DNA of 64,000 bases, from the NCBI GenBank assembly GCA_947172415.1, contig OX359197.1, forward strand, positions 992,001-1,056,000, given 5' to 3'. This document shows positions 1,802-49,400 of the stretch, in pieces. Positions within the stretch are counted from its first letter, which is position 1. Each line of letters begins with the position of its first letter. This DNA comes from Chondrosia reniformis (lineage: Eukaryota; Porifera; Demospongiae; Chondrillida; Chondrillidae). The notes beneath the pieces were generated by a model. It ran no database searches. It was not told where the DNA came from and saw nothing but the letters and a program-made list of their open reading frames with translations. Both the position numbers and the translations under genes were made by a program.

Positions 1802-2969
1802 TGTAGATCTACTTGACTACTTAATCAGGCGATGTGCGGGGGTCGCGCTGGAATAATGGGCGTTCCTACCGCTGGCATAGGAATATCTGAAAAAGGATGG
1901 TGCTATGGGAAAAGCAATGACGCTTCGTTACGTTTACGTTTCGTTAAAAGGTCGGTTCCTGTACAATTGTAAACATTGTATCTGGCAGACTATACCATCT
2001 CCTTTTCCCCAAAACCATTAATAATCATCAGAGATATAGCATCCATCTGTACCTATTAGTCTACCTGTAGCTATAGCTACACTTTGATATTAAAACTATA
2101 ATTGATATGTTCTTCTATCGTTCACTGTTCAGTATTCAGTATTTAAGTTAATGGGCACAGTCTACGAGGAGACTTGGGAGAATGATTTGGTGAGAGTGAG
2201 ACATGGATATTATTATACAGGTTTATGGCTTCTCATAAAATGCACTATGCACTATGTATCGCTTGTAAGGCAAAGACCTCGCTCTGGAAATACAAGGAGT
2301 TCAGCAAGTTACTTACTACTTGAGTTGAGACCCTCTATAGCCATTAATCACAAGAAGAGTTGAATTACTAAAGATCTGTCTCGCAATATATATACTAGTA
2401 AACATTGGACATAAATGAACTAAACCTTCCATCCTTTAAGCATTAAAAGACTATTCAGTTAAATTCATATTATCTGGAAACTCAGCATTTGTATTTGTAT
2501 TTGCAATTGTATTGCCCAATCTTGCATCATCGTCAACTGAAAGGAAGAAGTGCAGATACAAAATCTGTATTGTAGACTTGTCATCACCATGGCTTGTGTC
2601 TGTGTCCTTTAATTAATGTGAAATTAATGGAGTGTACATATAATGCATACGTATGTACACATTGAGATTAAAATATTTTGTGATATTACTTATTACTTTG
2701 TTCAGCCATTTTGTGCATCCAAGTAGGTCAGTGCATTCCTCTAATGATATTCATAGTGTTTAAATGGCTTGGCTCCACTGTGTCTGGACTAACATCCGGA
2801 ATTGTCTTATTTGGTAAAATTTGATCTAATTAACTGACTGTGTTATAATGCATATTGTTACAGTAGCACTAAGCTGTTAGGAGTCACTATATTATATACA
2901 TATGTATGAGTATATATATCATATAAATTGTTAAGGTAGATAGCACTAAGTTCTTATAACTAGATCGAT
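1802..2969. other. Intergenic region between divergent genes
   Basis: About 1.2 kb between the start of the minus-strand death-domain gene and the plus-strand BTB gene, so it should contain both promoters. The first 100 bases are relatively GC-rich (gtgcgggggtcgcgctgg). A 70-codon plus-strand ORF at 2151-2363 has no recognisable domain and is not called. An AG just before the BTB start would allow a 5' UTR intron, but no upstream exon can be supported. Confidence 0.45.
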
Positions 2970-4322
2970 ATGGCTGAGCAACTTTTCCTGGGCCTCCCTT
3001 TGAAGAGGAATTCAGACAACCACAGGAAACTTACTTTTTCCAGACAATTCCCTCATCTTGCCAATAGCTATAATGAAGAAAACTCTGATGTCACTTTCAT
3101 TGGACAAGAAGATCAGAATCCAATTAAAGTGCACAAGGAAGTTTTAAGTGTTGCCTCTCCTGTCTTCTTCAAAATGTTTAAAGGCAACTTTAGGGAAAGG
3201 AATGAGAATGAGTTTGCTATACCAGAGGAGTACACTGATGAGATATTCTCAATGGTAATTTCATTCATTTATGGAAAAGAAGTGATCTTGGAAGAGGAGG
3301 GTGACATTGTTCCTCTCTATGAAGCTGCTCATTATTACGAACTTGATGTCCTGATGAACTCAATAAGCCAACTTGTTTCCACTTGGTCTCGTCAAGATGA
3401 TGTAGATTGTAGACTACCTGCTGTTGTTAACCTGTGTATCTCAGCTGAGATGCGTGAAGATCATTCTCCAAGCCAGCTGCAGCTTGTTTTCAATGCAACT
3501 CTCCGATTCATAATCGCAAAGTTGGATTCATTTCTGGAAGAAGCTTACAAACATCATTTTATTAAGCTTATGGATAAAGCTATCTCCAAAATTCTTCAGA
3601 GTGAGGAAGTTGCTATCAAGGAAGTTGACCTTTTCCTTCTAGTACATGATTGGGTGGCTGAAGATAAATACAAAAGGAGGATCTTTGAATTTCTTTCCAG
3701 CATACGATATGGACTGATTTCACAGAAACACCTTGTCTATAAAGTGGCAGAGAAGGAACTGAAGGACCTCAAATTGTTTGTACTAGCCTTAAAACAGCAT
3801 CAAAAGTTTGACAAAGAAACTGCCAAAGGCAATATTACCCAATTTTCTAGCCGCCGTCAACAAAAGGGATTCTCCCCATTTTTCCCCTTGACCAAAACCA
3901 CACTACCATTTATAAGCAATGATTCCTGTAAAGCTGTGTTTGGCAAGGATCAATCACCTGGCATTATTATCTCAAGAAATTCTAGCAGTACTATGAATTT
4001 ACGTGTTGAATTTCCTGTTCAGAATGGGATCTATTACAATTCTATGTCCCTCCAGATTAAGGTCTTTTCATTTGCACCTTTAACAACATCGAAAGAAGAA
4101 TTTATATTTAATCCATCTAATGGTTGCTACAATTATGAAATCCAGTTCAATGCAGATTATATACTATCAGGTTGCCGTGGACCTGGAATCACTATTTGGG
4201 AACTGACTGAACCTAATACCATAAGGAAAAAACCAGTAGTGTACTCTGTGACGTTGCAATGTCCGTGGCTGGTGTCCTTTAAGTATAATTTAGTTGGCTC
4301 AGTGACAATAACACAACACTAG
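2970..4322 (+). CDS. BTB-BACK domain protein, intronless
   Basis: A single uninterrupted 450-codon frame. Residues about 38-135 form a BTB/POZ domain: the start NSDVTFIG, then KVHKEVLSVASPVFFKMF, then YTDEIFSMVISFIYG and YEAAHYYELDVL match the conserved D-V-x-F, H+xVL...S..F..MF and L..A..Y....L positions. Residues about 170-270 resemble a BACK helical region (VDLFLLVHDWV). The C-terminal 150 residues are beta-rich and may be a PHR-like or other substrate-binding module, but I cannot name it. BTB-BACK proteins usually act as CUL3 ubiquitin-ligase adaptors; here that is inference. The lack of introns contrasts with every other gene in the window and would fit a retrocopy or an ancestrally single-exon family. 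Confidence 0.85.
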   Translation: MAEQLFLGLPLKRNSDNHRKLTFSRQFPHLANSYNEENSDVTFIGQEDQNPIKVHKEVLSVASPVFFKMFKGNFRERNENEFAIPEEYTDEIFSMVISFIYGKEVILEEEGDIVPLYEAAHYYELDVLMNSISQLVSTWSRQDDVDCRLPAVVNLCISAEMREDHSPSQLQLVFNATLRFIIAKLDSFLEEAYKHHFIKLMDKAISKILQSEEVAIKEVDLFLLVHDWVAEDKYKRRIFEFLSSIRYGLISQKHLVYKVAEKELKDLKLFVLALKQHQKFDKETAKGNITQFSSRRQQKGFSPFFPLTKTTLPFISNDSCKAVFGKDQSPGIIISRNSSSTMNLRVEFPVQNGIYYNSMSLQIKVFSFAPLTTSKEEFIFNPSNGCYNYEIQFNADYILSGCRGPGITIWELTEPNTIRKKPVVYSVTLQCPWLVSFKYNLVGSVTITQH

Positions 4323-5804: not shown

Positions 5805-8800
5805 CTACTTACAATCTGCTTCCTGTTCTTCAATTGTTTCAAAACTGTTTTCTGAACTCCCAGAAACCTCCTTCTTAGTTGGAGTAGCTACAGCATCTAC
5901 TGTCAGTGAATCAGTACCTTCTGCAGAGGCTGTTAACTGCAAAATAGAGGATCAATCTATTAAAATAGTGCAACATTTCTTTTAGATTGGTAGCCATTTG
6001 TTCAATATAAAAGTATGCATCCTTAATATATATTTACTGCACAGTTATTGTATCTCTGCATTCAAAGCTCTATAGGCTTTCCCAAGGACTAAATCTAGGA
6101 AAATGTTCTATTCCAATATTCTCCTTATTATAGTCTCATACATGACGCCAACCATGTATTTAGGAATGATGATTTACATTATTCATGAGTAATCATTTCA
6201 TTAAAACATAATTTTTACTTGACTGCATTGACCAATTTATTAATTGGGTATATATCAGGATGTACTTGTTCTGGTTGCTGCACACCATTACAGTATCTTA
6301 CGTACATTGTATCAAAGTATCATACGTATGTACAATTACATTGTACAACTCAAACTCAATTTAAAGTTTAAATTATCCAATCAAATTGAAAAAGTTCTTA
6401 AGCAATACTATCCTGGTACAATATAAGAGTTTTTTTCCAGCTATTAGAAACTTACCTCTGAAAGGATTCCTCTTTCAATCTCTTTTGAGCATCAAAGAAG
6501 TGACGGAAGAAGACTCACTGACGTCCAATTAACAGTAAAAAGTTTAAATAAAAAAACTGTCTTTAGATGCTCAAGTGAGATCGAAAGATGAACCCTTTCA
6601 AAGATAATTCTATCTACCTCTTGTCCTGTACTCTCTTCTTCCTCTTCTATAACTATAGTCTTTGTTGGAGTGTCTCCCAGGATGTGAACCTCAACTGCCT
6701 TCCTCCACTCTAGACTCGCAACATCAATGTAGTTCACTAGCTCACCATTGTCATCCTCCATTGTTGGCTGTACACACATCATATAAATACACTTACCATA
6801 TTTATATGATAGGCTATTGAATGTGGTAATAATTCCCTGCTTGTGGAAATGTGGTACAATTAGTTAATAGAAAACATACTAAAGGGAAATCTCAGTTTAA
6901 GACACACTGTAGAACATGTAAAGACATTTTACTACCAAACTGATTATCTTTGAGCATCAACAACACCACTTGGATACAGAAAGTGAACGTTTCGACCTGC
7001 ACGAGTCTTAATTAGCAATCCGCAGGTCAAAATGTTCAATTTCTGTATCCAAGTAGAGTTGCTCAATGATAGCCCATTATCACAACAGATAACTCTTATT
7101 ATTGAGAGGGGCAGAATAAATACTAATATATATATTATATGAACTCTTTAAATTTCAGCTCACAAGATGGGGGTTAACTGTGGAGACTCCATCGACTACA
7201 AATATAAACGTGTGCCTACCAATAGGAAGATCCAGTGTACCTTTCCATGCATCCCTAAATCATATTCAAGCAAATGTATAGTAATTACAGGAAGGTACAG
7301 ATATGTATATAGATTAGAATGATTCAATATCATATAATGGAAACTTAAACTAATACAAAGCAAATTTAAATGATAACTTTTATCTCCTCTCTCTACTTGG
7401 AAACTAGTAAGATCCATGGCCTCCCTTACTCTGGACTAGACTGTCTGTGATACACATATAATACTGTATATACACACATATGTACGTACATACAGCATGT
7501 GTAATATACTGTTTATATACAGTACATATGCATATATACGTACGTACATGTGAAAATGCAACCTACTCTTCCTTAGTTAAAGGTACTTCCTTTTCATTTG
7601 TGAACTTTCCTTTAACGGCAACAGTTGTATTTCCTCCGTCTCCAGTCCATTCAAAGAGAACAGAACAAAGAGAACTTCCCTTGACAAAGTACTTCCCATA
7701 CACAACCTCCCTCTCTTGTAGCCTAAGAGAGAGGGAGGTACAGAATAGTGATAATGACACAGCATTCAGAGGTAGTGAAAAATCTGAGATTATTGACACT
7801 GGTAGCAATACATCCATAGTACAGCAATAGACCAGTGGTCAATAGTAAAGGTATAGTGATAGTAAAGGTATAGGGTATAGTATAGTGATAGTAAAGGTAT
7901 AGGGTATAGTATAGTGATAGTAAAGGTATAGGGTATAGTATAGTGATAGTAAAGGTATAGTGAATCTATGGAATTACCTAAAAGATTGCATTTGCAGTTC
8001 ACGAGGTGGAGTTTGGTTGACTTTCCATGACCTGCTTCTTGTTGGTGTACTGCTACGACTATCTTCTCTATCATCATCATCATCACTATCAAAGTCTTGG
8101 GAGGTTGGGTTGAAACTAATTGACAAGTCCTGTACTTCAGTGTCGTTCTCTACACCACTATCAGTCACCTCAATCAGTTGCCCAGTTCCAGTCCTCTACA
8201 GTTTGGAAGAATAAAATTAAAGTTCTCATTCTCTGTGAAACAAAATAATTATCAAAAAGACTACAAAAGTGATTTAAAAATGGCCACCATTTAATGACCC
8301 TATATGGTAAGAATGTATAAGAAACCTTGTATCCTCATCCAAAGCTCTCACTAGGTTTAATTCCCTATAGACCTTTACATGTACGTATAGCATGTAAGAA
8401 AAATGGTGTATTGATTATTCATAAGATATTGAAAACCACCATTGTGTTCAGCCGTACAGCTGCAAATGTACTTCCTTGTCAAATTATTAGTGACATATTC
8501 AATTTGATTTTGATCTGCTCTTTGATGGTACAGTTTTATCAGATACGGCAGTGTGATTTAATCTAATGTTTTATTGAAATCTTAAATGTAAAACACTTTG
8601 AATTGTAGGACGTAGGTTGAGAACTTAGAAAGTAGACCTTCAATATTTGGTACAGAACCTTATGTACGTACATCAAGCCTCTTCACAGTGACAACCGTTA
8701 TGTCATCTTCTTCTTCTTCTTCTTCAACAGTGACCAGGAAATGATTTGGAGAAGTCTCAAACGGCTTACAGTAATCATGTAAACCGTCTACAATCAAATG

Positions 8801-10807
8801 AGTGAAAAGATTTATATCAATATGCTGCATGTAACTCTGTATATAGTAAATATAGCAAGTACAGTATAAATACAACACACAAGTACAGTATAAATACAAC
8901 ACACAAGTACAGTATAAATACAACACACAAGTACAGTATAAATACAACACACAAGTGCAGTATAAATACAACACACAAGTGCAGTATAAATACAACACAC
9001 AAGTGCAGTATAAAAACAATGTGTACAAACATCTTTTTACCCTTTAGCAATTCAATTTCACTCTGCCTGGTTACCTGGCAACAGCAAGCCATACAAGGCA
9101 CATTAGTGTACTCATCCCTACAAAAGCAGTAAAGGAAACATTTTACAGGATACTCACACAGCCAGACCCTAATGGCTTCCTAACCATACTCAAAGAAGGA
9201 AGTAGAGCAAGCCAAACTCACATACAGTTATACATTACGTACAATTATAGAATATATATACTCTACTCAAAATAGTAGTCCTTTGATACGTATATACATA
9301 TACATATACGTTGTGAAAGGTATGTACGTATGTAATAAGGACAATCATTAGAGAATATTAATGATTGTCCTTATAACATACATACCATTCCTACTTCCTA
9401 CTTGGCAAGTGAAACATGCACCTCAGATGTACTTAATGTGACAAGAATGGTGAAACATTACCACAATAAGTGTACACATACATACATACATATATAGGAG
9501 AGTGTACATATTTAACAGTGTGTGAATATAAGGTATGTATATGAGGATATTCACCAGCCAAGTGACCAGGGGTATGTATGTATGTATGAATAATTGAAGT
9601 GGTTTGTGTGATAGCAAACCACAAGTAATCATTTCAAATACCACGAAGAGGGAAAAAATCTTAAAAGAAACAATTCCTGGGAATTGAACCAAGGACGGCT
9701 GGTTATGACCACCAGTGCTCTGCCACTGAACAACTATGCACATAATTAGTCTTTTTTCACACTAATTAGTGAATTTAGTTATCAGAACACAAACTGATAA
9801 GACCCAAGTACTAACTGTAACTCCCTGACCCTAGTGTAGGGAACATTCCTTTCTTCAGTGCCATAATCGACATACAACATGTGAAAGGACTCTTCAAGGA
9901 CACCAACACACTCGGCTCTGCACCACTGCTCTTCTTCCATATTATCAATCTCATCACCATGACGACTGACAGCAAAGAACTGCGGACGAACTGTACCAGT
10001 TGGGGGAGGCAGTGGATCTGCTCTCCTGTAGTATTCGTTCATGGCAGAACAAAGAGACTTGAAGCTTTCCACATCTTCCTCAATAGGCTATAAGTACATC
10101 AATACCAACTCACCCATTTAAAATACCACATATAAGATAACATCTATAGTAGAATTATCAGAAATCCTATTTACTGGTAATTTTTTTATCTGAAATTTCT
10201 GGCCAGTTATGATATGATTTGTAGTTATGAAGTCTGGTAAACTAAATAGTGTAGTAGGATGACTACTTACTTCACAACTAATTAATAGCTATTTGACTAC
10301 AAGCCACAATATTGACATCAAACGTTATGTTTGTTTACATTCGCATATCGCGGTAACATGTTCTCAATCTCACACAAACAATACCCAATGCTACGTTAGA
10401 GGCGCCCATACAACAGACCTACACAAGTACACCATCTCGCGTTATTGGAGACATACCACGAACCAAGCCCTGTTGCCAACCTCTTCGATACGAGTACAAA
10501 CTGCCACGAATTGGTTCCCGGGGGCACCTCGGCGCTCTATGTGATTCCCTACGTGTACTGTCCACCTGTTTATTAGTGACGAAGCAAGAGGAGGATGACG
10601 ATTTCTACGCCTCCTTCTACAACGAAGGCAGAGCACAAGTAAAATTAATATCGACACTGGTATCCCAAAAGCGAGGAATCTTCTAAAGCGGTGAGAGTAC
10701 CGCATAAAGAATCCACCTCCTTCGTGGAACCACGGCGATAACATCTGAAAGAAGTCGTCGGTCCCGTACAGCTGGTCATCTCCTGCTTCTCCTGGGAGAA
10801 CCTCCAT
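5805..10807 (-). CDS. Membrane-anchored extended-Tudor protein with degenerate CBM48 (10 exons, about 528 aa)
   Basis: Exons: 10457-10807, 9816-10087, 9041-9117, 8672-8787, 7978-8195, 7567-7722, 7164-7254, 6618-6767, 6456-6479, 5805-5936. Residues about 42-64 hold a hydrophobic anchor (FGIPVSILILLVLCL) followed by CRRRRRN. An extended Tudor domain follows (EEQWCRAECVGVLEE, MLYVDYGTEE), then an acidic linker. Exons 6-8 encode a CBM48/AMPK-beta-like module: FEWTGD, VKGKFTNEKEVPL, LDLPIGRHTFIFVVDG, VNPHLP, GELVNYIDV. The tail is acidic and Ser/Thr-rich. Intron phases are identical to those of the TDRKH-like gene on the other side of TXN2, so the two are paralogs. Unlike that gene it has no KH domains, and the sugar-binding Trp/Lys/Trp positions of CBM48 are Glu/Ile/Ser or Val. 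The likely role is a Tudor adaptor on an organelle membrane. Exon 9 (24 nt) and the final stop are the least certain parts. Confidence 0.75.
6951..7065. mobile_element. Foldback element in an intron of the Tudor-CBM48 gene
   Basis: The left arm (tgagca...cttggatacagaaagtgaac) and right arm (ttcaatttctgtatccaag...tgctca) are nearly perfect inverted repeats about 30-40 nt long around a short centre. On the minus strand the centre reads CTAATTA, a short stem, then GGTCGAAAC, which resembles a decayed hammerhead core. It sits between exons 7 and 8. Probably a non-autonomous mobile element. Confidence 0.55.
7842..7966. repeat. 29-bp tandem repeat in an intron
   Basis: About four copies of a unit built on agtaaaggtatagggtatag...tgat, lying in the intron between exons 5 and 6 of the minus-strand Tudor-CBM48 gene. 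No coding role. Confidence 0.8.
8325..8411 (+). mobile_element. 3' fragment of a short interspersed repeat family
   Basis: Begins with cttgtatcctcatccaaagc, then ctcactaggtttaattcc, ctatag and gcatgtaag, matching the 3' half of the copies at 11.4, 17.8, 42.6 and 48.2 kb. The 5' ribozyme-like half is absent here. Confidence 0.65.
8853..9013. repeat. 24-bp tandem repeat in an intron
   Basis: Six to seven copies of gtacagtataaatacaacacacaa-type units with one or two substitutions, located between exons 3 and 4 of the minus-strand Tudor-CBM48 gene. Translated ORFs through it are artefacts of the repeat. Confidence 0.85.
9335..9375. repeat. Short perfect inverted repeat
   Basis: ataaggacaatcatta and taatgattgtccttat are exact reverse complements separated by about 9 nt, giving a strong hairpin in the intron between exons 2 and 3 of the Tudor-CBM48 gene. 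Confidence 0.7.
9660..9745 (-). ncRNA. tRNA-like sequence (SINE head or pseudo-tRNA)
   Basis: On the minus strand the segment has a D-arm/box A-like string (TTCAGTGGCAGAGC), a perfect 5-bp anticodon stem CTGGT/ACCAG, and a T-arm/box B-like string (GGTTCAATTCCC), spaced as in a tRNA gene and followed by a T run. The acceptor stem does not pair, the T stem has a mismatch and the anticodon loop lacks U33. A functional tRNA is therefore unlikely; a tRNA-derived SINE head or tRNA pseudogene fits better. Confidence 0.42.
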
Positions 10808-10923: not shown

Positions 10924-12258
10924 CTACGAGTCGTCTAGTACATCTAATAAGGCTTCAATGACTTCGTCCCCCTGCACACCAACAAACTGACCCAGCTGTT
11001 CCCCGTCCTTGAAGCCCATGATAGCTGGTACAGCGGTAACCTAGGAGACAAAACAGAGCTGGGTAATTCAATATAATGCAACAACTAATCAAATAAACAT
11101 TTAGTTGCATACAGGACAATTTGGCATTATTTTTGGAAAGTTTGGTATTAAGATATGCTTCATTGAAGTTTCAATTTTGGAATATACAAAGACAATTTAA
11201 ACCTAGATTCAATTAATGTTATATGACTCACAATTTATATACATATGTATATATTTACAGTATAATATGAATAGTATAATAAAAAATATTATAAAACACC
11301 ATTTTCCTACATATTGTGTCCATTTTACAATAAAAGGCCTATAGGAATTAAACCTAGTGAGAACTTTGGACAAGGATACAAGAGTCTTCACTTACATGGC
11401 CCAGTGTAGAAGAAAGCACTTGTATCCTCATCCAAAGTTCTCACTAGGTTTAGTTCCCTATAGGCCTTTTACTCTAAAGTAGATGTAGCATGTAAGAAAA
11501 ATGATGTGTTGTTAGAATAATTATTTACTGCACGTGCTATGTACCTGATGATTGAGTGCAATGTCGGGAAGCACATCAATATCAACCTTTGCCAGATCAA
11601 TTCTGTCCTGTCTTTCCCTCAGAGCAGACTCCAGCTTTGGACCCAAAATCTTACATGGTCCACACCAACTGAATGTGAACATACACACATAGCTAATAGG
11701 ACATTATTGAGTATATAATAATAATAAGAATAATGATTATTGAGTGACAATCAGTAATCTAACCAGCCAAATAGGCTTACTAGTCACAAAAAATGATGGG
11801 GGTAATTACATTAATTAAGTTGTGAATGGCTAAGTTTATACATCTTAAACAAAAATGGATAATTTAATGATCCTTTCAAAAGATAAGTTCGACACAGTTA
11901 GAAGGAACCCTTACTCTATTATCCTACAAGAATCCATCACATCACACATGCCTATTTAGACCATAGATTATCGATGACTACGTAGTTATGGATAATCTAT
12001 CTTTAGAACAAATCCGATCGAACACAAATAAGAATACCTTAAAACTACAGTCTAAGTAATAATCACTTGCTTTGCGTGGAAATCCACCAGAACTGGTTTT
12101 TTACTTTTCAGAACTTTAGTTTCAAAGTCCGATTCTTCGGATACATCAAAGACAGCTCTATTAGCAACGCTTATCCTTAGGCTACGAGCCCTCATAACGT
12201 TACAGCATTGCACGCGCAGAATATTATGCCTTCTTACGAAGCTTGTGAAGGCGGCCAT
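10924..12258 (-). CDS. TXN2: Mitochondrial thioredoxin (three exons, 142 aa)
   Basis: Exons 12071-12258, 11545-11668 and 10924-11040. The first about 40 residues are Arg-rich and lack acids (MAAFTSFVRRHNILR, MRARSLRIS), as expected of a matrix-targeting presequence. The thioredoxin fold follows: PVLVDFHANWCGPCK with both redox cysteines, then LAKVDIDVLPDIALNHQ, and the cis-proline region AVPAIMGFKDG. It reduces protein disulfides in the mitochondrial matrix using thioredoxin reductase. The active-site codon for Asn before WCGPCK is split by an intron whose donor is GC (AA|GCAAGT), a non-canonical GC-AG intron; without it the frame stops before the active site. Its start codon is 92 bp from that of the divergent TDRKH-like gene, and its stop is 116 bp from the start of the Tudor-CBM48 gene. 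Confidence 0.93.
11335..11512. mobile_element. Inverted pair of short interspersed repeats
   Basis: Two copies of the repeat family lie head to head. 11335-11415 is on the minus strand (reads ...gggccatg...cttgtatccttgtcc...ggtttaattcctatagg). 11416-11512 is on the plus strand (cttgtatcctcatcc...ggtttagttccctatagg...gcatgtaag). The pair sits in the intron between TXN2 exons 2 and 3 and could fold into a long hairpin in the transcript. Confidence 0.65.
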
Positions 12259-12350: not shown

Positions 12351-15300
12351 ATGGTTTATCTGTCCAGACGATTGCTCTTATTTGTCGGTTTAGGCTCTCC
12401 TTTGTTGCTAGCTTTACTTTACTTTCTTTGTTATTGCGGAGATTCTGATAAACGGAGAAGACGACAAGTGGACCCAACCCGAGTCCAGCCACGCAAGCAT
12501 CCTTCAGAGAATAAAGAGGTCCCCATTCCAAAGAATTATGTAGGCTACATCATTGGGCGAGGTGGAAGTAGAATAAAGAAGCTGCAGGAAGATTACGGAG
12601 TAAAAATCCATTTGAGAGACGAAACGCCTACAGACGAAGATGACACGCGTACTCTAGTCATCGTGGGTGATCAGGAAAGTATTGCAAAAGCAGAAGAGAG
12701 CGTTAAAAAGTTGATAGAGGAGAAATTAAACGCTCCCCAGCCGCAGACCCTTTGTATTTCCATTCCCCAATCTTCAGTTGGTAAGTTAATTGGCAAACAA
12801 GGAAGCAATATCCGTCAGATGCAGAGGGAGTCTGGGGCTAAGATAGAGGTAGACAACGGTCTTGCTACCACATCAGAGAGGTTTATCAAGATTACTGGAC
12901 AGCCCTCCGAGATTGACTATGCTTGTCGCTTGATAAAGGAACTGATTGGACACTTTCACAACCATACGGTGGGTCACGCCCCCACGAGCAGTGAATGGAG
13001 TGGGCCTGTAGAATTAGAAGCCACTATATTACCAAATGGTCCCTTTAAAGCCTTTTCCAGTGCCATCAGCGATGGTGGATCTATTTGGATTCAGGTGAGT
13101 CTAAGAGATGAGAACAGCAATGAAAAGTCCCAAAAACTGAACTATTGAACTGAAAGTGTATATTCAGTTCTGATATGAGATTAGCTGTCATATATACGTA
13201 CCTCTTATAGACCTCCATTTTCTGGAATATTCATATCAATCATTCTGTTATTCTAACGTACCTAGCTCCTGTTAATTTTAGATTTTTGTTTCAATTCCAT
13301 ATCATGTATGTATATGTATAGCGTTGACAGCAAATGCAAAATGTGGCATTTTTTGGCCAAACTGTTGATACAGCAGTTCCATTTGGAGATGTAGTAACTC
13401 TGTCATAGCATAGAGATGACACAGATGCACTTGTGCTATCAGGTAGACATTTTTTCTTTGTCCCAGGTCATTACTTCAGATCTTCACAGACTGCCTGCAC
13501 TTGTTGAGGAAATGACAGGTTTCTATGAGAGGGGTGGAGTTCCCCTTCAAGATGTCTGCCAGGGGAAGGTCTGTGCTGCGGTGTTTGATGTGGACCACCA
13601 ATGGTACCGAGCAGTGGTATTGGAGGAGCTAGAAGGAGGCAAATGGAAGGTCCTCTTTGTAGACTATGGAGACACTGGAGTGTGGCCAGCTTCTAAACTG
13701 AGAGAGCTGAGGTACAGTGTTGTGCAATACTTTACATTACCTTAGCAGGGCTGCATGTAGAACTTGGGGCCAGGTGGGGCAAAATGAATACTGGAGGGAG
13801 GCTATGGTTTATAATATAATTCCTGACTAAAATTCTAAAGCAACAAATTACATATGCAATTTTTGTGGAGGCGGTGGGGTAGGGGAGGAGGAGGAGGGGA
13901 GGGGAGGGGAGGAGGAGGAGGAGGGGAGGAGGAGGAGTGGGAGGGGAGGTGAGGAGGAGGGGAGGAGGAGGGGAGGGGAGGAGAGGGAGGAGGAGGAGGA
14001 GGAGGGGGAGGGGAGGGGAGGGGAGGGGAGGAGGAGGAGGAGGGGAGGGGAGGGGAGGGGAGGAGGAGGGGAGGAGGAGGGGGGAGGGGAGGGGAGGAGG
14101 AAGGGAGGGGAGGAGAGGAGGAGGGGGAGGGGAGGGGAGGAGGAGGGGAAGGGGAGGAGAGGAGGAGGGGGAGGGGAGGGGAGGGGAGGAGGAGGGGGAG
14201 GGGGTACTCTTCTACACTTTGTAATGTAAGACATATTTAGTAGTAATCTAACAGTAATGTTACGTTTTAGATATGAATTTTGTACGTTGAAGGTTCAAGC
14301 AATTAAGTGCAAATTGGCAGACGTGGAACCTGTTGAAGGTACATCTATCATGCACTCATCTTACAAGCTTTAGACACTGTAATTATCAAAATAATAAATA
14401 TTCATGATACAATTTTTAGTACTAGATTCTTACTTATGTGTTTATGCATAAGGCACAATATACATCTTTACAAAATAATAGATAAGGATTTCTTCATTCA
14501 GTATTTAAACAACTCCAATATTCTCCATATCCCATTGTTGGTCAGTAAAGACCTATTTAGTCATGTTGCTAGGATACATGGGTCATATAGCACTATCCAT
14601 GTGATGTTCAATTTACCTGTATATTTAAACTGGACCTAGCTACACACAGTATATATTATTATTATTATTATTGTTGTTGTTATTGTTGTTGTTGTTGTTG
14701 ATTTAAGTACATCATGTGCTGGACGCACACTAGGGCTACATTGCCCCATGTAGCACTGTACAAAGAGTAATGAAACATATACATTCTGGTTAAACATGGA
14801 TAAACACAATCCTTATAGCTTCTAATTCATCCCCTATCCCGTATATAACTAGCCGTCTCACTCCTAAACTCATCGTTCACCTTAAAGGTTTTACTGTCTG
14901 TTTTGTGTTCAAAAGGAACAAAGTGGACGTTTGATAGTTTAAAGGTTTTGGACGATTTGACCATGTGTGCCCACTGGAAGGAAATTACAGTTACAGCTGT
15001 CGACAGGGAGAGTAACCCTCCCTCAGTCTCAATCAAGAATGAGTCAGCTCAACCAGTGAGTTTGTTGCTCTAGATCTGTATAGCTTACCATGTGAATGAG
15101 CTCTTAATGAAGCTTCATACATATACCTACTGGACTGTATGTGGAACTTGGGGCCAGAGGGGGCAAAATGGAAATTTTCAAAATTTAGAGTGGGCAATGG
15201 TATAGAGTGTCGAAGCAGTTTAGGGGGTTCCCAAAAGTCTGAGAGGGGAGGGCAAAATCAAACCTATGGGGGCATTTCTCTATGCAGCCCTGACCTAGAT

Positions 15301-18135
15301 ATGACTTTGGTCACTTGGCTGGTTGGCTGGTTGGCTGGTTGGCGTAATATTTTCAAGTGAATAGCCTTCATATTCCTAGTCAGTTGGTTGTATTACTAGC
15401 CAATATTAAAAAGGGGTTAATATTTAATTAACTCTAATGTTTCTACTAGAGGATACTTTATAAGTACGAGTAGATACTGTATTTCTCTTATAATCTGCTG
15501 ATCCCCCTCCCCTCCTCTTCTCTCCCCTCCCTTCCACTCCACTCCCCTCCTCTCCCCTCCTCTCCCCTCCTCTCCCCTCCTCTCCCCTCCCTTCCACTCC
15601 ACTCCCCTCCTCTCCCCTCCCTTCCACTCCACTCCCCTCCCCTCCCCTCCCTTCCACTCCACTCCCCTCCCCTCCCCTCCCCTCCCCTCCCCTCCCTTCC
15701 ACTCCACTCCCCTCCTCTCTCCTCCACTCCCCTCCCTTCCCCTCCCCTCCTCTCCCCTCCTCTCCTCCACTCCCCTCCCTTCCCCTCCCCTCCCTTCCAC
15801 TCCACTCCCCTCCCCTCCCCTCCCCTCCACTCCACTCCCCTCCCCTCCCCTCCCCTCCACTCCACTCCCCTCCCCTCCCCTCCCCTCCCCTCCACTCCAC
15901 TCCCCTCCTCTCCCCTCCTCTCCTCCACTCCCCTCCCCTCCCCTCCCCTCCCCTCCTCTCCCCTCCTCTCCTCCACTCCCCTCCCCTCCCCTCCCCTTCC
16001 CTCCACTTCACACCACTCCGCTCTCCTCCACTCCTCTTCCCTCCACTCCCCTCCACTCCACCCCTCTCCTCCTCTCCTCTCAGGTGTATGATGTAGCCAC
16101 TGAACTAGTCTCAAGAGGTCTTGCCAAATGGAAGGACAAGGGAGACAGTGAAACAGCTACCCCTGTCCTTCAATCTACACTACATCCAAGGTAAAACGCT
16201 GTTCCCCTGAGAATGTCCCAAGTGCTCATTCCGCTATAGGAATAGCAAGTATAGCTAGTATATGTACTCAAAAATTATTTTTTCCTCCTTTTAATCACTT
16301 CCTGTAATCTGGCTATATTAGTATATAAAGTATATTATTTATGGGTATCTTTAGAAGTGACGCTCCATTATGCTATATACAGGCTCTTCCATTTTAAATA
16401 ACTGATCAAAAGGAGAGCTAACATTCACCATTTTTGGTGATTATTTTTATCTGTAAATTTGAAACTAACTCTTATACCTCACAAAAGTAGTTGAGAAATG
16501 TTTTATTTGCTGGTGACACCACTTATTTATAGATCTCATGATGCAGTCACTTCTCTGAGCTCTGGTACTGGTGAGAAATCAGTAGAGGATGTCACTTCAG
16601 ATAAGCAGCAGTTTACCACTAAATCTTCAACAAAGAATGTCAACATAGAATGGAAAGGAGATGACAAAACTAAACAGGTCTTCATTGTGGGAGATTTCAA
16701 TAACTGGTCAAAGGAATCAGCTCTCCCACAAAGGTACAACATATTACCGTATATCGGGAATTGAATGCGTGTGTCAAAAGAATGCGAATTGCGAGTTTTG
16801 ACTGTATGCGCAATCTTTTGACGTGACGCCTCAATAATTTTGTATACACGTCCCGTACACCTAAGCTTTATCTCGCATTCTTTTAACCACAATGTTTACT
16901 GAAACCCGTAATTCGCAATCTTTTATTCTCGCCATCATATCCCGATATACGGTATGTGCAACTTCAATATTGGTCTTCAATTCAGTGTCTATTAATATCT
17001 TATCCAACAATGAGAAATTACTTTAGATTCAATTCTCTTGCTCTTACTCTATAAAGATTTTTTGAATTACGTCAGTTAAGTGTCATTCACTCTTACTGAA
17101 TTCACTTTACATATGACATGTTACACACATGTTGGATGAAATGATACGGATTGACTCATTTGAATCCCTCTATTACATATGTTGGTATGGCGACTCATTT
17201 GAATCCCTTTATTACATATGTTGGTATGGCGACTTCCCATAGTGATGGCACATATTCATTGAACTACTCATTACCGGTTGGAAGGTATCATTACAAGTTT
17301 GTGGTAGACGATGAATGGATTCACAATCCAAATCTGGTAAGAGGACATTTTATTTGTTAAAATTACAGAAGCTATGAATATTTGTAGCGATCGCTGATCA
17401 CACTTAGCGTTACATGCCCAGTAATATGTATATAATGGAGCTAAGGATAAAAATGTTAGTGTCCTATCTCTTCCCGTCCTGTTGCACTGACTGCACGAGA
17501 CAAAACACGGCAAGATTACGGAGGGACACCTGAAGATTGCACAGAACTGAGTAACAGAAATAACGCAGAAAAGTAGTTTCTTACAGTCAAACACAGAACA
17601 GCTGGTTTAAACAGTGCTAGGGCACCAAGCTATAATTACTATTAGTACTGACTCAATTATTCTTCATTCAATTACCACTGTTCGATTATAATAGTCCTTT
17701 TATTCAATTAGTGGTGATTCTAATTAAAATGGCCTAACACTATTATTGGCCCAATGCTCATCGAAAATGTATAAAATGCAAAAGATATAAAGGATATAAG
17801 AATTCAAAGAAGAACTTCCAGAAGGAAGGCTTCAAGGGTTCACTGATGAAGGGCAGTATTATAGGAACACTGTCTGGCCCAGTGGATTAGAAGAAAGAGA
17901 AAACTTTTGTATTGTATCATTATCCAACGCTCTCACAGGGTTTAGTTCCCTATAGGTTTTTTACTGTAGAATAGATGTAGCATGTAGTAATGGCTTATTC
18001 ATGTCTTTTCACATGTCACCCTTCTGTTTGACGTAGCCATGCTGTGAAGACGGAACAGGAATGTTCTTAAATGTGCTGAATGTAGACCAGCCGGTCACTG
18101 CAGCCATAGATACTAGTTTGGGAAGTGAACTTTAA
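12351..18135 (+). CDS. TDRKH: TDRKH/Papi-like protein: anchor, KH-KH, extended Tudor and C-terminal CBM48 (8 exons, 565 aa)
   Basis: Exons 12351-13094, 13467-13711, 14271-14338, 14916-15055, 16084-16190, 16533-16733, 17243-17336, 18037-18135, all joining in frame. A hydrophobic N-terminus (RRLLLFVGLGSPLLLALLYF) is followed by RRRRQ, a tail-out anchor as in TDRKH of the mitochondrial outer membrane. KH1 (GYIIGRGGSRIKKLQ) and KH2 (GKLIGKQGSNIRQMQ) both keep the GxxG loop. The extended Tudor domain shows HQWYRAVVLEE and VLFVDYGDTG. The last three exons encode an AMPK-beta-type CBM48: VNIEWKGDD, VFIVGDFNNWSKE, LPVGRYHYKFVVDDEW, NPNLP and LNVLNV, with the carbohydrate-contacting Trp, Lys, Trp and Asn positions present. 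TDRKH recruits PIWI proteins for piRNA 3' trimming; the glycogen-binding module is not part of the TDRKH architecture I know. Confidence 0.88.
13868..14210 (+). repeat. Polypurine (GGA/GGGGA) microsatellite, intron 2 of TDRKH-like gene
   Basis: About 340 bp made almost only of G and A on the coding strand (gaggaggaggggagggg and variants). It can form G-quadruplexes or triplex DNA. It is complementary in sense to the C/T tract in intron 4. Long ORFs on both strands here are repeat artefacts. Confidence 0.95.
15129..15292 (+). repeat. Repeat fragment shared with 13747-13805
   Basis: Both places contain ctgyatgtrgaacttggggccag followed by ggggcaaaatg, and this copy ends with gcagccctga, the inverse of cagggctgcat at 13747. 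Probably remnants of one small interspersed repeat in introns of the TDRKH-like gene. Confidence 0.45.
15500..16082 (+). repeat. Polypyrimidine (CCCCT/CCTCT) microsatellite, intron 4 of TDRKH-like gene
   Basis: About 580 bp of C and T on the coding strand (ctcccctcctctcccctcc, with cttccactcc interruptions), running directly into the AG acceptor of exon 5 and so serving as a giant polypyrimidine tract. The G-rich minus-strand frames through it are not genes. Confidence 0.95.
16745..16954. mobile_element. MITE with 15-bp terminal inverted repeats
   Basis: Ends are exact reverse complements: taccgtatatcggga at 16745-16759 and tcccgatatacggta at 16940-16954. About 210 bp, no coding capacity, in intron 6 of the TDRKH-like gene. 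Internal parts also repeat in inverted form (aatgcgaattgcg versus aattcgcaatc), typical of a foldback or MITE; a TA target duplication is possible because the repeat itself starts and ends in TA. Confidence 0.75.
17157..17234 (+). repeat. 39-bp direct tandem duplication just before exon 7
   Basis: Two nearly identical copies (catttgaatccctctattac...ggcgact) lie immediately upstream of the AG acceptor at 17242 of the TDRKH-like gene. They read through in frame as THLNP...VGMA but are better explained as intronic. Confidence 0.75.
17815..18000 (+). mobile_element. Short interspersed repeat with hammerhead-like core (copy 3)
   Basis: Full-length-looking copy in intron 7 of the TDRKH-like gene: cttccagaaggaaggcttc, then cactgatgaagggc, GGAACA (mutated from AGAAACA), ctgtctggcccagtgg, a purine run, tccaacgctctcac, ggtttagttccctatagg and gatgtagcatgtag. 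The CTGATGA box lies at 17843-17849; the GAAA box is damaged, so self-cleavage is unlikely for this copy. Confidence 0.65.
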
Positions 18136-20756
18136 ACTGTTTTTAAGAACACTGTTTCAATTTTCAATCTGTAATCATATTTTATATATTCTTGGAAAAT
18201 TGGAATTATATATGTATTTGTACAACGTTAAATTGTTTGCAAATCAATAGTAAGACAAGTGTTATTCCTTACAAGGAAAACGGTTTTTATCAATTCTTAT
18301 TTGTTTCATAATTTACAATTCAAAAGTTAAACAGCAATGTACGTACGTAAATGCTGTATTTTTAGCTTTAGTTCATCGGAGTATAATAAATGTCCTTTAC
18401 TTGTATTTGAAGGTTAATGAGTGCCATTGTGTCTAATAAATATTTTATAAGAGTTTCAAATACTGTGTTGACTATGAATCTTGCTTGTTTCTTGAATTCC
18501 TCTTCTTAGGCCAAATTAAGGCAGTAACCAGAGTCACGCCCTGCATCATTCCATAGACCCAAAGGTCAGCATTTATACAGAATATATGTGTATATTACTG
18601 TATAATTTTACCTAAGCATATTACAATGGAGATTTTGAGAAGTGAATCATTTGAGGTCAATTTTGAATGAGTTATGCACAATAGAATGAACATGTAAACA
18701 ATCTTGTCTTGCTTGTCTGTGGATTTAATTTAAAACAAAGCATACGTACTAGAAGTTACCACATAACAATACGTATCTGATATATACTGTATCCCTGTTC
18801 TACCTATGAAGATGAGGGTAGCTAACTGCAACCCCAGGTCATGAAACATATGCAGAGACCATTGCCCATTGGAATAGTAAGTCTGTAATGTGTACGTTGT
18901 AGCATAATTGTAATTTACTAAATACATCTTGATTGTATGAAATGGTATTCATTGGTATGTAAATGAATTGAATGGTGGGCTCCTTATAGAGTAGACTAGC
19001 CTATTTGGCTAATAAGCTCCTTCCACCTAAAAGGATTTTAATCCATTATCTATAAAGAAACAGCAAAATTTAAAGAAGTGATGACACTTTCCGTCAAAAG
19101 TATTTCAACCAACCAATCAGCTTTGAGCTCACATTAAGAAGCTTTTAAAGCTATCCATCAGTTTTCCATTTTCATAATCTCCTTCACTTGTTTGTAGACT
19201 CCAGAGCTATCTCCTGCCTCTCCAAGAGTGTACAGTATCCAGAGCCCACCTCTACTACAGACTAGTGGTGCTCCAATCTCCACTCCTTGAATGCCTGAAT
19301 AACTAAATCCCTCTGCTGATCACACCTTTCTGGAGTTTCCTCTTGGAAATACTGATGGAGGTTGATAGAAAATGGTTGGATATCAAAGCTGCTCAGGTAC
19401 TGAATGTTTGAATTTGTCATTATGGATCAATCAGTGGTTTTGAATGCAGTGTTGACATTATATCAGCTTCAAGTTAGTAAAATATCTGTAGATTTTCAAA
19501 TAGAAACTAAAATGGCCTAAATTGAGTGTACTTCTTCCTTGTCTGCTCTAACCAGGTGTTACCTTAGAGAATTGCATGAATTCTTGAACAACTGGTAAAG
19601 TATGTATTTCTCAGGTGCCCACTCTTACTTGTTGTAGTATGTATATAGGTAGAACTATTTTACAATACCCATAATAAATGTTTCCCTTTAATTTGTTCAG
19701 CTGTTGAGAGTCTCATGCTAATGGATTGTTATACTGTCTCCTCCACTGACCAAATGTGAACTGCAACAGGTGTCTATGACTTTGCAGGATAAACTGTAGA
19801 AGACTAGGGTTTTATGATTTTGATTATCAAGAGCTATCAGACCTGCGTACGTAGATGAAGAAGAGCCATGTCTGCTAGCTAGTCCTTGCACAGTGGTTGG
19901 AATCTTAATGACTCCAAAAGAGCCCTTAATATCTGCACTGTAACTGAACATGAAATGGGCCACCACTTACTAGCACACAAGTTGTACACTTATATAATTA
20001 ACAGTCTTTTATTTGTATCCGTGTTCTCTGTATAATAATCACTGATTATTTGTTTGATGTGTTATTTTATACATTGATATTATCATTATTTCTTGATTTT
20101 AATGTGATCTATACGTATGTGGAGTATATACAATGCACTGCTAAAAACTTATAATGGAAACAAGCATATAATGCTAATTAAAGAATGTATACGTATTTTT
20201 ATATATATACTACTGTTGATCTGTGCTTTAATTTGTATCATATTCCTGTCATAGGATTGCATTATATATATAGTTGTTTAACAATAGCTTGCAAACCATT
20301 TAAGTTCATATATTGTCTAACAAGACTATATTATACAAATTTCAGTACTATATATAGTTGTCACACCTAAATAACAACATTTATAATAGTACAGCTCTAG
20401 ATCTATATATCAAGGCAAATTGAACAATTAAAACACTAACTTATAACCAGGCACATGCATATAGCCTGATCATGAAAGTGTACATAATTCACTAGCTGGC
20501 TTGTGGACTTGTAACACAATATGCAGGCACTTCTGAACTTACACTTTATGAAACTGTACATATTAACTTTGAGTTAATGTGTTGTCATTTCGATTCTATG
20601 ACCATTATCTCAGCAGTCCCACATGCAGAGCTATACGTGCTGTCAAACACACTGAGTGTTATATATGCATGAACTCACAAAGGAATACCAATCGAATTTG
20701 TGCAAAACAAATACACAAAATTGAGCGCGCGTACACCTTTAAGTGAACAAGAAGAC
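18136..20756. other. Mostly gene-free interval
   Basis: Apart from the possible gene fragment at 19.16-19.94 kb, I see only AT-rich sequence with short unsupported ORFs and no tRNA, rRNA or clear mobile-element ends. Confidence 0.4.
19158..19943 (-). pseudogene. Possible gene fragment or pseudogene of unknown family
   Basis: On the minus strand 19158-19399 follows an acceptor-like ttcag and shows coding-like translation in two successive frames. First comes LSSFDIQPFSINLHQYFQEE; then, after a +1 shift near 19308-19330, GVEIGAPLVCSRGGLWILYT and SSGVYKQVKEIMKMEN with a stop at 19158. Joining them needs either a frameshift or a 23-nt intron (gtgtga...ttag), shorter than plausible. A further candidate exon at 19843-19943 (ADIKGSFGVIKIPTTVQGLA) and a tiny one near 19569 lie upstream. 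I do not recognise the family. A decayed gene or mis-assembled exon is most likely. Confidence 0.33.
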
Positions 20757-46400: not shown

Positions 46401-49400
46401 AGCATTGAACCGGACCTACCAACTGCAGGGACTCTAGAATCTTTAACAACATCCATCTTGGATACTTCAATAGGAGTTACAGAGAGGCTGACAGAAAATG
46501 GTACCATTCCGTTCTTGCCTATACAAATAGTGACATCCTTTTTCTCCTTTTCACTTATTTCCACTCTATATTCCTCTTCTCTAAACTCAAAGTACACTAT
46601 ATAAAAAGGTATATAAGACACCATAAAGTCATTGTGAAGTATATACTCATTATGTATGTACAAATTAATGGATGTATAAAAATTTCCTAATTACATTCGG
46701 AAAACCAATTAACCTTGACATAGAATTCATTCCTACAAGCCATATACAAGTACATAAAAGGAAAGATTTTTTGAAATAAATTGTTTATTGGTAAAATTGA
46801 ATTGTAATCAAGGTAGTATAACTTTCAAGTTTCATTAGCAAGCCATACTTTCCACATTTACTTAATGGTTACTATACGGTCAAATGGTATTACTAATCAT
46901 TTCAATGCACACAAAAGGCATAAATCTTTTCAATTTAAAAAATCACATTCATAGTAAATTGATTCTCACCATCGTCATTTAGAATGTTTACTGTGACTTC
47001 CTTGGTTGTTCCTAGGGTTACTGCGGTTGAATTCGTAAAGAGGCAAATGTTGAATTTCTCATATTTTTCTATTTCAGCATCATCAAAGACACTGAAATCG
47101 CTGAAGCACTTCATAAATTCATTTGTCTCAAATGTGACTGCCAGCATTACTGGCTTATAGTCAACACCAGCTGTGAACAAAAGAAGTTAAAATGTCATTA
47201 AATTGTAGAGAAATACATATAAACAAAAGTATATGTGTCTATGTAAGTGTAGTATTACAGTATGACTTCGTAGAAATTTATCAACTTTGGTGTATACTTC
47301 TTCCTTTTTTCAATGCTGTTCAATGGTACTGTATATACATATTTGGTAATGGATCCCTTTAGTTGGTTTTAAGCATATTTAATGAATAAGGCAGACTAGG
47401 ATTCACAGAAGATCAAGATCAAGAATAAGGCAAAGATTCCCAGGGTCACTGATGAAGGGTGGAATTCCAAGAAACAGCTGTCTGACCCAGTGGAGCAAAA
47501 GAAGAAAGAAAAGAAAATAAGACTCCTTTTTAGGCATAGCATGTAGGAAAATAGTGTATTAGAATTTTCATTTGTATCTTTGAAAAGGTAAAAATTTCTC
47601 CAAAGAAGTGATTTGAACAGAGTGAAACTTTTAATTGATCTTATGTACATTTGTATTTTAGGTAAGTCATAATTTGCAGTTTGGACTGATTTAAGTATTA
47701 AAATATTCAAACAATGGTTTACATAATTGATACTATATATAGTATCAATATTACACAAACATGCCCTTTGTCATATAATCTCTCATTCTGTATATATACG
47801 TATTCTGTATTCACTTGTACACACATATACGTATGTATATACACGTATATGTGTGTGTGTGTGTATTTGTATATATGAAGATACGTATATACAAAAGTTA
47901 TATATATATTACCTGTAGCCTTGTCTTGACCAGAATAATCACAAGTGTGTAAGTACACTGTCACAGGGCAGTCATTATTCCTACGCTTTGTCACACAAAC
48001 ATTAAATGAGGCTTCACTCTCAATCACATTAATGACTCGGTTGTTAACAAATTGAACAGATACAACTGTATACGGGAAGAGATAGAAAGTTAGGATGATG
48101 ATGTATTCAGGGATAAACCCTATTATTAGGCACTATTCACATGCATATCAACCATATCCTCAGGGAAATGGTTGACAGTTTGATGGAGATTATCACATGG
48201 AATTAGTACTTTCTTATAGCAAAGGCCTATAGGGAACTAAACCCAGTAAGAGCTTTGGATGAGGATACAAGAGTTTTCTCCTTTACTTTTCTTCTTCTTC
48301 TTCACTAAGCCAGACTGCTGTTTCTGGGTATTCCGCCCTTCATCAGTGATCCTGGGAATCCTTGCTATCTTGTTGATCTTTTGTGAGTCCTTGGCTCTCT
48401 GTGTATACACATTACAACACTGCATTAATGAAGTGAGCATCTATACCGTCATTGTCCAAGATGTTGACAGTTGTTGAGATGTTGTATTCAACAACACAGA
48501 GCTCCACCGTCTCAATCGTCTCGACAATATTATCATCCATCACGACAAACTTGGTACAAGCTGTATTCTCACCGGCCTCGAATGTTACAGTGTTTTCCAA
48601 ACGGTAATCTATATTCTCTGTAAGAAATTAAGTAGTGGGGGCTCAATACTCAATGAATATAACATTGCTAAGTAGGCTAAACCCTTTCAATAAAAATCCT
48701 TTCTTCTGAACATTTTTTCATTATATAGGGAATTACAGTGTTGTTATATAACTTGCATGCAAACAGTGTTGCTATATAACTTGCATGCAATCATAACCAC
48801 AAAGGTAGTGTTTTCACTATAATCCTTAAACTGTGTAGGCATATATAAATGAATCACAAAAAAGAGAGTATACAATTGCAAGTATACGGGGTGATACAAC
48901 CAACTTACCAATTATGTCACCACAGGGAGAACTAACAGTCACTTCATTGCACCTACTCAAGGTAACCGTATATGACACAGATGTATCACCAGTTCTGACT
49001 AAACACACATCTACTGAAATATCATCTTCAACAACTGTGATATTTGTACTAACAAATGTGATTGTAATTGGCGTAGGAGTAGGGAGAATATCTGATGAAG
49101 AGGTCACTACATCACTAGAAACTGGTGAGATAGGGAGTGACCCTGTTGGAGTCACTGTCTCTGATCTGGTAACAGATGGCAATGATCTAGTGTCAGGCGG
49201 GACTGGTGAGATAGGTGGTGATACTGTTGGAGTCACTGTCTCTGATCTGGTAACAGATGGCACTGATCTAGTGTCAGGCGGGACTGGTGAGATAGGTGGT
49301 GACACTGTTGGAGTCACTGTCTCTGATCTGGTAACAGATGGCACTGATCTAGTGTCAGGCGGGACTGGTGATGTAGGTGGTGACACCGTTGGAGTCACTG

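Follow-up and report, generated by a model that had tools for sequence, protein, structure and literature searches.

The stretch of Chondrosia reniformis DNA analysed here, 64,000 nucleotides in all and referred to as the window, corresponds to positions 992001-1056000 of contig C9, as placed by a search of the sponge's own genome, which is made up of 14 chromosomes plus MT (PMC12181767) and which our own-genome searches covered as an assembly of 117,379,552 bases in 15 contigs. On its plus strand lies a predicted gene, TDRKH-CBM48, composed of eight exons whose splice joints are predictions read from the sequence; each of the seven introns has GT-AG borders, and the reading frame stays open for 565 codons before the stop. 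Exon 1 (12351-13094), delimited from the exon chain and Pfam, holds the start codon, a hydrophobic segment, the two KH domains (KH1 and KH2) and the start of a Tudor domain, the core of which occupies exon 2 (13467-13711), where both the Pfam TUDOR profile and the own-genome TUDOR search find their match. The extended part of this domain, recognised by alignment to the solved TDRKH structure 6b57 (and, for exon 4, from the exon chain as well), runs through exon 3 (14271-14338) and exon 4 (14916-15055) and ends at about residue 421 in exon 5 (16084-16190), which also begins a linker and closes on a phase-2 donor, AAG/GTAAAA. A Ser/Thr/Asp-rich stretch of linker and the first part of a CBM48 module, including the equivalent of AMPK-beta W100, follow in exon 6 (16533-16733), the middle of the module with the equivalents of K126 and W133 in exon 7 (17243-17336), and its end, with Leu at the N150 position, in exon 8 (18037-18135), which carries the stop codon. 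Calculated from the exon chain and the Pfam match, the CBM48 (residues 471-552) extends over plus-strand positions 16639-18093, introns included.

Several other features of the window may be recorded. Introns 2 and 4 of the gene consist largely of purine- or pyrimidine-rich low-complexity runs (about 13868-14207 and 15503-16083), and the run in intron 4 extends directly into the exon 5 acceptor. Upstream, a plus-strand open frame of 452 codons (2964-4319) encodes a BTB domain (1.5e-16), detected in a 161-residue piece. Far downstream, positions 49121-60854 are taken up by an 81-base unit repeated in tandem about 145 times, with 91% matches; GC content at 50001-60000 is 0.51-0.53 with a GC skew above 0.3, the array period is a multiple of three, and minus-strand open frames lie near both array ends.

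The encoded protein starts with a hydrophobic stretch at about residues 7-28, delimited by eye. It is followed by two KH_1 stretches (7e-36, above the curated Pfam cut-off; window positions 12516-12707 and 12750-12941) with the GxxG loops GRGG and GKQG, and by a TUDOR match at residues 232-346 (1.8e-22, likewise above its curated cut-off). The top PDB match of the Tudor part is TDRKH itself (6b57, 3.3e-26), over residues 235-421 and thus reaching into exon 5. The order of the parts, from a hydrophobic N-terminal stretch (a putative membrane anchor in the sponge protein) through paired KH_1 domains bearing GxxG loops to a single extended Tudor domain, is that of TDRKH (also known as TDRD2 or Papi); what sets the sponge protein apart is a C-terminal CBM48 of about 80 residues, as neither PF16561 nor PF02922 figures among the Pfam domains of any of the 16 homologues listed in the KH/Tudor comparison. 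A second possible affinity is with AKAP1, a mitochondrial protein that also combines KH and Tudor domains, although it has one KH where TDRKH has two. A midpoint-rooted tree built with the proteins from the homologue search (15 of the 16, P0009, with KH only, being excluded) groups TDRKH-CBM48 with four TDRKH-type rows as against 11 AKAP1-type rows, at 100/100 and with long branches, the labels of P0001, P0003, P0004, P0008 and P0010 having been assigned by us. Judged by this tree, the KH/Tudor part is on the TDRKH side and not on that of AKAP1. KH and Tudor matches lie close together at a single locus among the genome matches listed.

The tail matches the AMPK1_CBM profile (PF16561) at residues 471-552 with an E-value of 4.9e-23 and 81.6 bits, the curated cut-off being 26.8, while the broader PF02922 stays below threshold (14.2 versus a cut-off of 22.4). 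The match spans exons 6, 7 and 8, the portion from exons 6 and 7 reaching 2.5e-18 by itself, and the top PDB relatives of the tail are AMPK-beta chains (3.9e-13). Eight in-frame exons joining a KH pair with intact GxxG loops and one extended Tudor domain to a C-terminal CBM48 of the AMPK-beta type had been proposed in a sequence-only reading of this DNA, and each of these elements is borne out by the frame and by the profile and structure matches described above. That reading had also held all the sugar contacts of AMPK-beta to be present, which proves correct for the two stacking tryptophans and the lysine (Trp100, Lys126 and Trp133) and incorrect for Asn150: several alignments place Leu at that position, and the late Asn that had been taken for it aligns with Asn151. 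An excerpted review names Trp100, Lys126, Trp133, Asn150, Gln124, Gln145, Leu146 and Thr148 as AMPK-beta contacts to beta-cyclodextrin (PMC9788615). With the numbers of this list placed by us onto chain 2lu3, TDRKH-CBM48 has W, K, W, L, H, G, T and M at W100, K126, W133, N150, Q124, Q145, L146 and T148, so that three of the eight contacts named in the excerpt are identical and N150, Q124, Q145, L146 and T148 are changed, whereas the AMPK-beta of this sponge retains W, K, W and N as well as L146 among the same eight. The Leu at N150 lowers the claim of glycogen binding but not that of the fold. Because the stacking platform is kept, glucan binding by TDRKH-CBM48 is plausible, and its predicted strength and specificity should differ from those of AMPK-beta. 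The sponge protein further departs from AMPK-beta in having no C-terminal subunit-binding domain, since it ends 13 residues past the CBM match, and the CBM domains of TDRKH-CBM48 and of the sponge's own AMPK-beta are 32% identical.

A second, diverged gene of related layout, which the sequence-only reading had not mentioned, occupies positions 6492-10807 on the minus strand. Its exon 1 (10457-10807) encodes a hydrophobic segment, then an Arg run and the start of a Tudor domain, with no KH, and the Tudor core is in exon 2 (9816-10087). Exons 3 (9075-9117) and 4 (8672-8836), with boundaries set by eye, lead to exon 5 (7978-8195), which contains the end of the Tudor region and an acidic linker and finishes on the phase-2 donor TAG/GTAATT. 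The CBM48 begins in exon 6 (7567-7722), preceded by a strong pyrimidine acceptor and with W100 lost, continues in exon 7 (7164-7254), where K126 is Ile and W133 is Ser, and ends in exon 8 (6492-6767), the true 3' end being uncertain. Pfam finds TUDOR (1.2e-12) and AMPK1_CBM (6.6e-18) in this gene model, and no KH domain. At W100, K126, W133, N150, Q124, Q145, L146 and T148, the eight contacts of the review excerpt, the minus gene has a gap, I, S, V, T, D, N and E, and the residue at N150 is consequently aliphatic in both Tudor-CBM48 genes. To judge from these replacements, its CBM48 is not retained for sugar binding, and the loss of W100, K126 and W133 implies that the module need not act via sugar. 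Between the two lies a thioredoxin-family gene (10924-12258, minus strand, ends by eye; Thioredoxin 5.3e-11 for the frame 11521-11703), which is head to head with TDRKH-CBM48, their start codons about 92 bases apart, and may share a promoter with it. The 3' end of the minus gene and its downstream flank are partly duplicated, as 88-89% identical DNA, at two places, one on C9 (L011, C9:952000-961999, about 6028-7297) and one on C10 (L013, C10:4950000-4959999, about 8791-9549); neither was accepted as a third intact gene, as within 20 kb each comprises exons 7-8 or exon 8 only.

How closely the plus and minus genes are related depends on the scale at which they are compared. Each model has eight exons, and their intron phases (0,2,0,0,2,2,0 in the minus gene versus 0,2,1,0,2,2,0 in the plus gene) are equal for six of the seven introns, including the phase-2 intron between Tudor and CBM48; the plus gene served as a guide when exon ends of the minus gene were picked by eye, and this may bias the models towards such agreement. 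When the two proteins are aligned, introns 1, 2 and 7 coincide and intron 6 is one column off; the offset is 14 columns for intron 5, which lies where the linker aligns poorly, and 27 and 33 columns for introns 3 and 4. The Tudor domains share 28% identity over 130 positions and the CBM48 modules 36% over 88 positions, and in both cases the score was reached by none of 200 shuffles. In genome-scale searches, the CBM or Tudor queries of the two genes do not recover each other, and the plus gene is matched instead by Tudor genes elsewhere in the genome, the best at 4.1e-11. The front part of the minus gene has no significant match in the PDB (best 0.081). Their kinship, as far as these comparisons go, is distant, and common descent would rest on layout, introns, neighbourhood and pairwise scores. 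If the two are paralogues, their divergence would make the fusion old.

As for the source of the module, PF16561 has five exon-level matches in the sponge genome at E-values up to 0.001, and these belong to four genes: AMPK-beta (contig C4), a frame with CBM48 and an esterase-like part (C8), a gene near 563 kb on C9, and TDRKH-CBM48 itself; the minus gene, missing from this list, came to light on reading the sequence. Both introns within the CBM48 have equal phases and matching positions in AMPK-beta, the C9:563 kb gene and the plus and minus genes (the positional comparisons with the first two having been made by eye), whereas the C8 frame runs through without introns. On this evidence, an animal gene of the AMPK-beta type was probably the source of the module. 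It has no close relative among the nine other CBM48 domains compared, to which it is 30-36% identical. In the C9:563 kb gene (minus strand, about 5190-7040 of L008), the protein closes with a CBM48 (4e-20) that keeps W100, K126, W133 and N150 and is preceded by a low-complexity acidic, Gly-rich region, seen by eye; the gene was considered as a third Tudor-CBM48 member and rejected, there being no Tudor match nearby. The C8 frame (L007, 5066-6238, minus strand) is a single frame of 390 amino acids with an N-terminal CBM48, its esterase-like part having been recognised by eye.

No KH/Tudor protein with a CBM48 appeared in three limited homologue searches (16, 9 and 1 matches, the last at an E-value of 2.6), nor was any protein among those listed named as belonging to a sponge; the searches require shared exact words, and the one with 16 matches scored 8000 candidates, which makes such absence weak. 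Proteins in the list of nine are without KH or Tudor, and the one with a named organism is from Chitinophagaceae; AMPK-beta was too short to be a candidate in that search. Host contamination was considered and set aside, a scan of prokaryote genome contigs having given nine pattern matches, none confirmed. Among open-licence papers, none was found that joins a Tudor/KH domain with a carbohydrate-binding module or CBM48, none on TDRKH and glycogen deals with such a protein by title or the start of its abstract, and none on TDRKH, sponge and piRNA is about sponge animals by title, in keeping with the earlier reading, which knew of no described protein of this kind. The RNA-backed Ensembl Rapid Release and BRAKER3 annotations (PMC12181767) may already contain both gene models, at 1004351-1010135 (plus gene) and 998492-1002807 (minus gene) of chromosome 9.

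Whether exons 1-5 and exons 6-8 belong together turns on the joint between exons 5 and 6, for which the support internal to the plus gene, read from its sequence, is fair. By a splice-site matrix, the exon 5 donor outscores three of the six other donors. The exon 6 acceptor is weak, with 10 of 17 pyrimidines, a count attained at 26% of the AG dinucleotides on the plus strand of the window; that of the minus gene is strong, its 15 of 17 pyrimidines being attained at 0.27% of AG dinucleotides on the minus strand. It could be argued that a TDRKH-like gene ends after exon 5, at HPR-stop, beside a small CBM48 gene that starts from an ATG at 16498, with the minus-strand counterpart being either a joint copy of the pair or unrelated. 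The plus gene's weak pyrimidine tract and a TATAAA at 16324 would suit this arrangement, as would the immediate stop encountered in both genes if exon 5 is left unspliced and the in-frame ATG found upstream of exon 6 in both, yet a phase-2 donor starting with GTAA always reads as a stop, so the read-through stop carries little weight. By eye, no likeness is seen between the N-termini that the two small proteins would have, and the arrangement also has to contend with exons 5 and 6 being phase-2 compatible in the plus and minus genes alike and with the strength of the minus-gene acceptor; block duplication of two adjacent genes would not account for compatible splice sites in both. Polyadenylation hexamers point the same way, as AATAAA and ATTAAA are absent from intron 5 of both genes and at least one follows the last exon of each, including two AATAAA past the TDRKH-CBM48 stop (at 18385 and 18435, within 18385-18440), but this evidence is weak because such hexamers also occur within plus-gene introns 3, 4 and 7 (14393, 15405 and 17723). 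Hexamers and splice scores alone are too weak to decide the joint. The main support for a single gene comes from the minus gene: since it shares the Tudor-CBM48 order, the exon count and the phase of the linker intron, a mis-joining of two neighbours is unlikely. We consider two adjacent genes quite improbable, though slightly less so in view of the weak kinship of the plus and minus genes at the genome scale. The fusion of a Tudor-KH protein with a CBM48 is, on these grounds, probably real.

The best explanation of such a fusion, to which we give about an even chance (roughly 0.5), is that TDRKH-CBM48 is a TDRKH-type scaffold whose CBM48 tail tethers the platform to an alpha-glucan, be it glycogen or another. 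Mouse TDRKH expressed in HeLa cells requires its transmembrane segment to reach mitochondria and its Tudor domain to bring MIWI there, and it also brings PNLDC1 to mitochondria; the same source describes TDRKH as a scaffold of piRNA 3'-end maturation on these organelles (PMC6411938). By extension, the sponge protein, if spliced as predicted, would be anchored by its N-terminal segment in what is presumably the mitochondrial membrane, would bind RNA through its two KH domains and would dock PIWI through the extended Tudor domain in a putative piRNA role, while the CBM48 at the C-terminus, set off by a linker of about 50 residues, would attach the assembly to glucan. A precedent for the layout is PTST, a non-enzyme scaffold whose C-terminal CBM48 brings its partner to glucan and whose variant with both Trp replaced loses starch binding (PMC4339375). 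The likeness is that of a protein-binding part followed by a C-terminal CBM48, and by analogy piRNA-processing mitochondria could be docked on glycogen, which makes glycogen docking of a piRNA scaffold plausible. PTST belongs to plant plastids and has a coiled coil, and it is not known to carry a KH domain, a Tudor domain or a membrane anchor.

Doubt about this explanation comes from the minus gene, which keeps a CBM48 signature without W100, K126 and W133 and thereby makes the link with energy status one of two live readings. In the other, which we hold possible though tentative, the fusion is real and the CBM48, a domain with an immunoglobulin-like fold, is a protein-interaction or dimer module, any glucan binding being residual from an AMPK-beta-like origin. 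The strong AMPK1_CBM match of a minus gene stripped of its sugar residues and the aliphatic residue at N150 in both genes favour it; the retention in TDRKH-CBM48 of both stacking tryptophans and the lysine that the minus gene has lost speaks against it. A scenario that would accommodate both genes, though it strikes us as rather unlikely as a whole, is an old sponge family of membrane-anchored Tudor-CBM48 scaffolds, in which the KH-bearing member docks the piRNA platform on glycogen, so that stores would set where or when piRNAs mature, and the sister, having lost the sugar site, uses its CBM48 to bind a partner, which might be the KH-bearing member. It is also conceivable, if improbable, that TDRKH-CBM48 serves, instead of a piRNA role or in addition to one, as an anchor for RNA and signalling at mitochondria in the manner of AKAP1, with its CBM48 linking this function to the state of glycogen, a proposal that overlaps both glucan docking and the protein-module alternative and does not exclude either. 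The one KH and Tudor locus among the genome matches listed could stand for TDRKH and AKAP1 together, and the branches in the tree are long; still, two KH domains, a top solved match to TDRKH and a position on the TDRKH side at 100/100 speak against it.

Glycogen and PIWI, the two components that glucan docking by TDRKH-CBM48 would bring together, occur jointly in the stem cells of sponges. A gene pair with and without the sugar site makes the role of sugar binding directly testable. With the fusion, an AMPK-beta-type CBM48 would have been reused outside AMPK in an animal, and its presence on a TDRKH, with a second Tudor-CBM48 gene alongside, would constitute a physical link between glycogen and genome defence in an early-branching animal.
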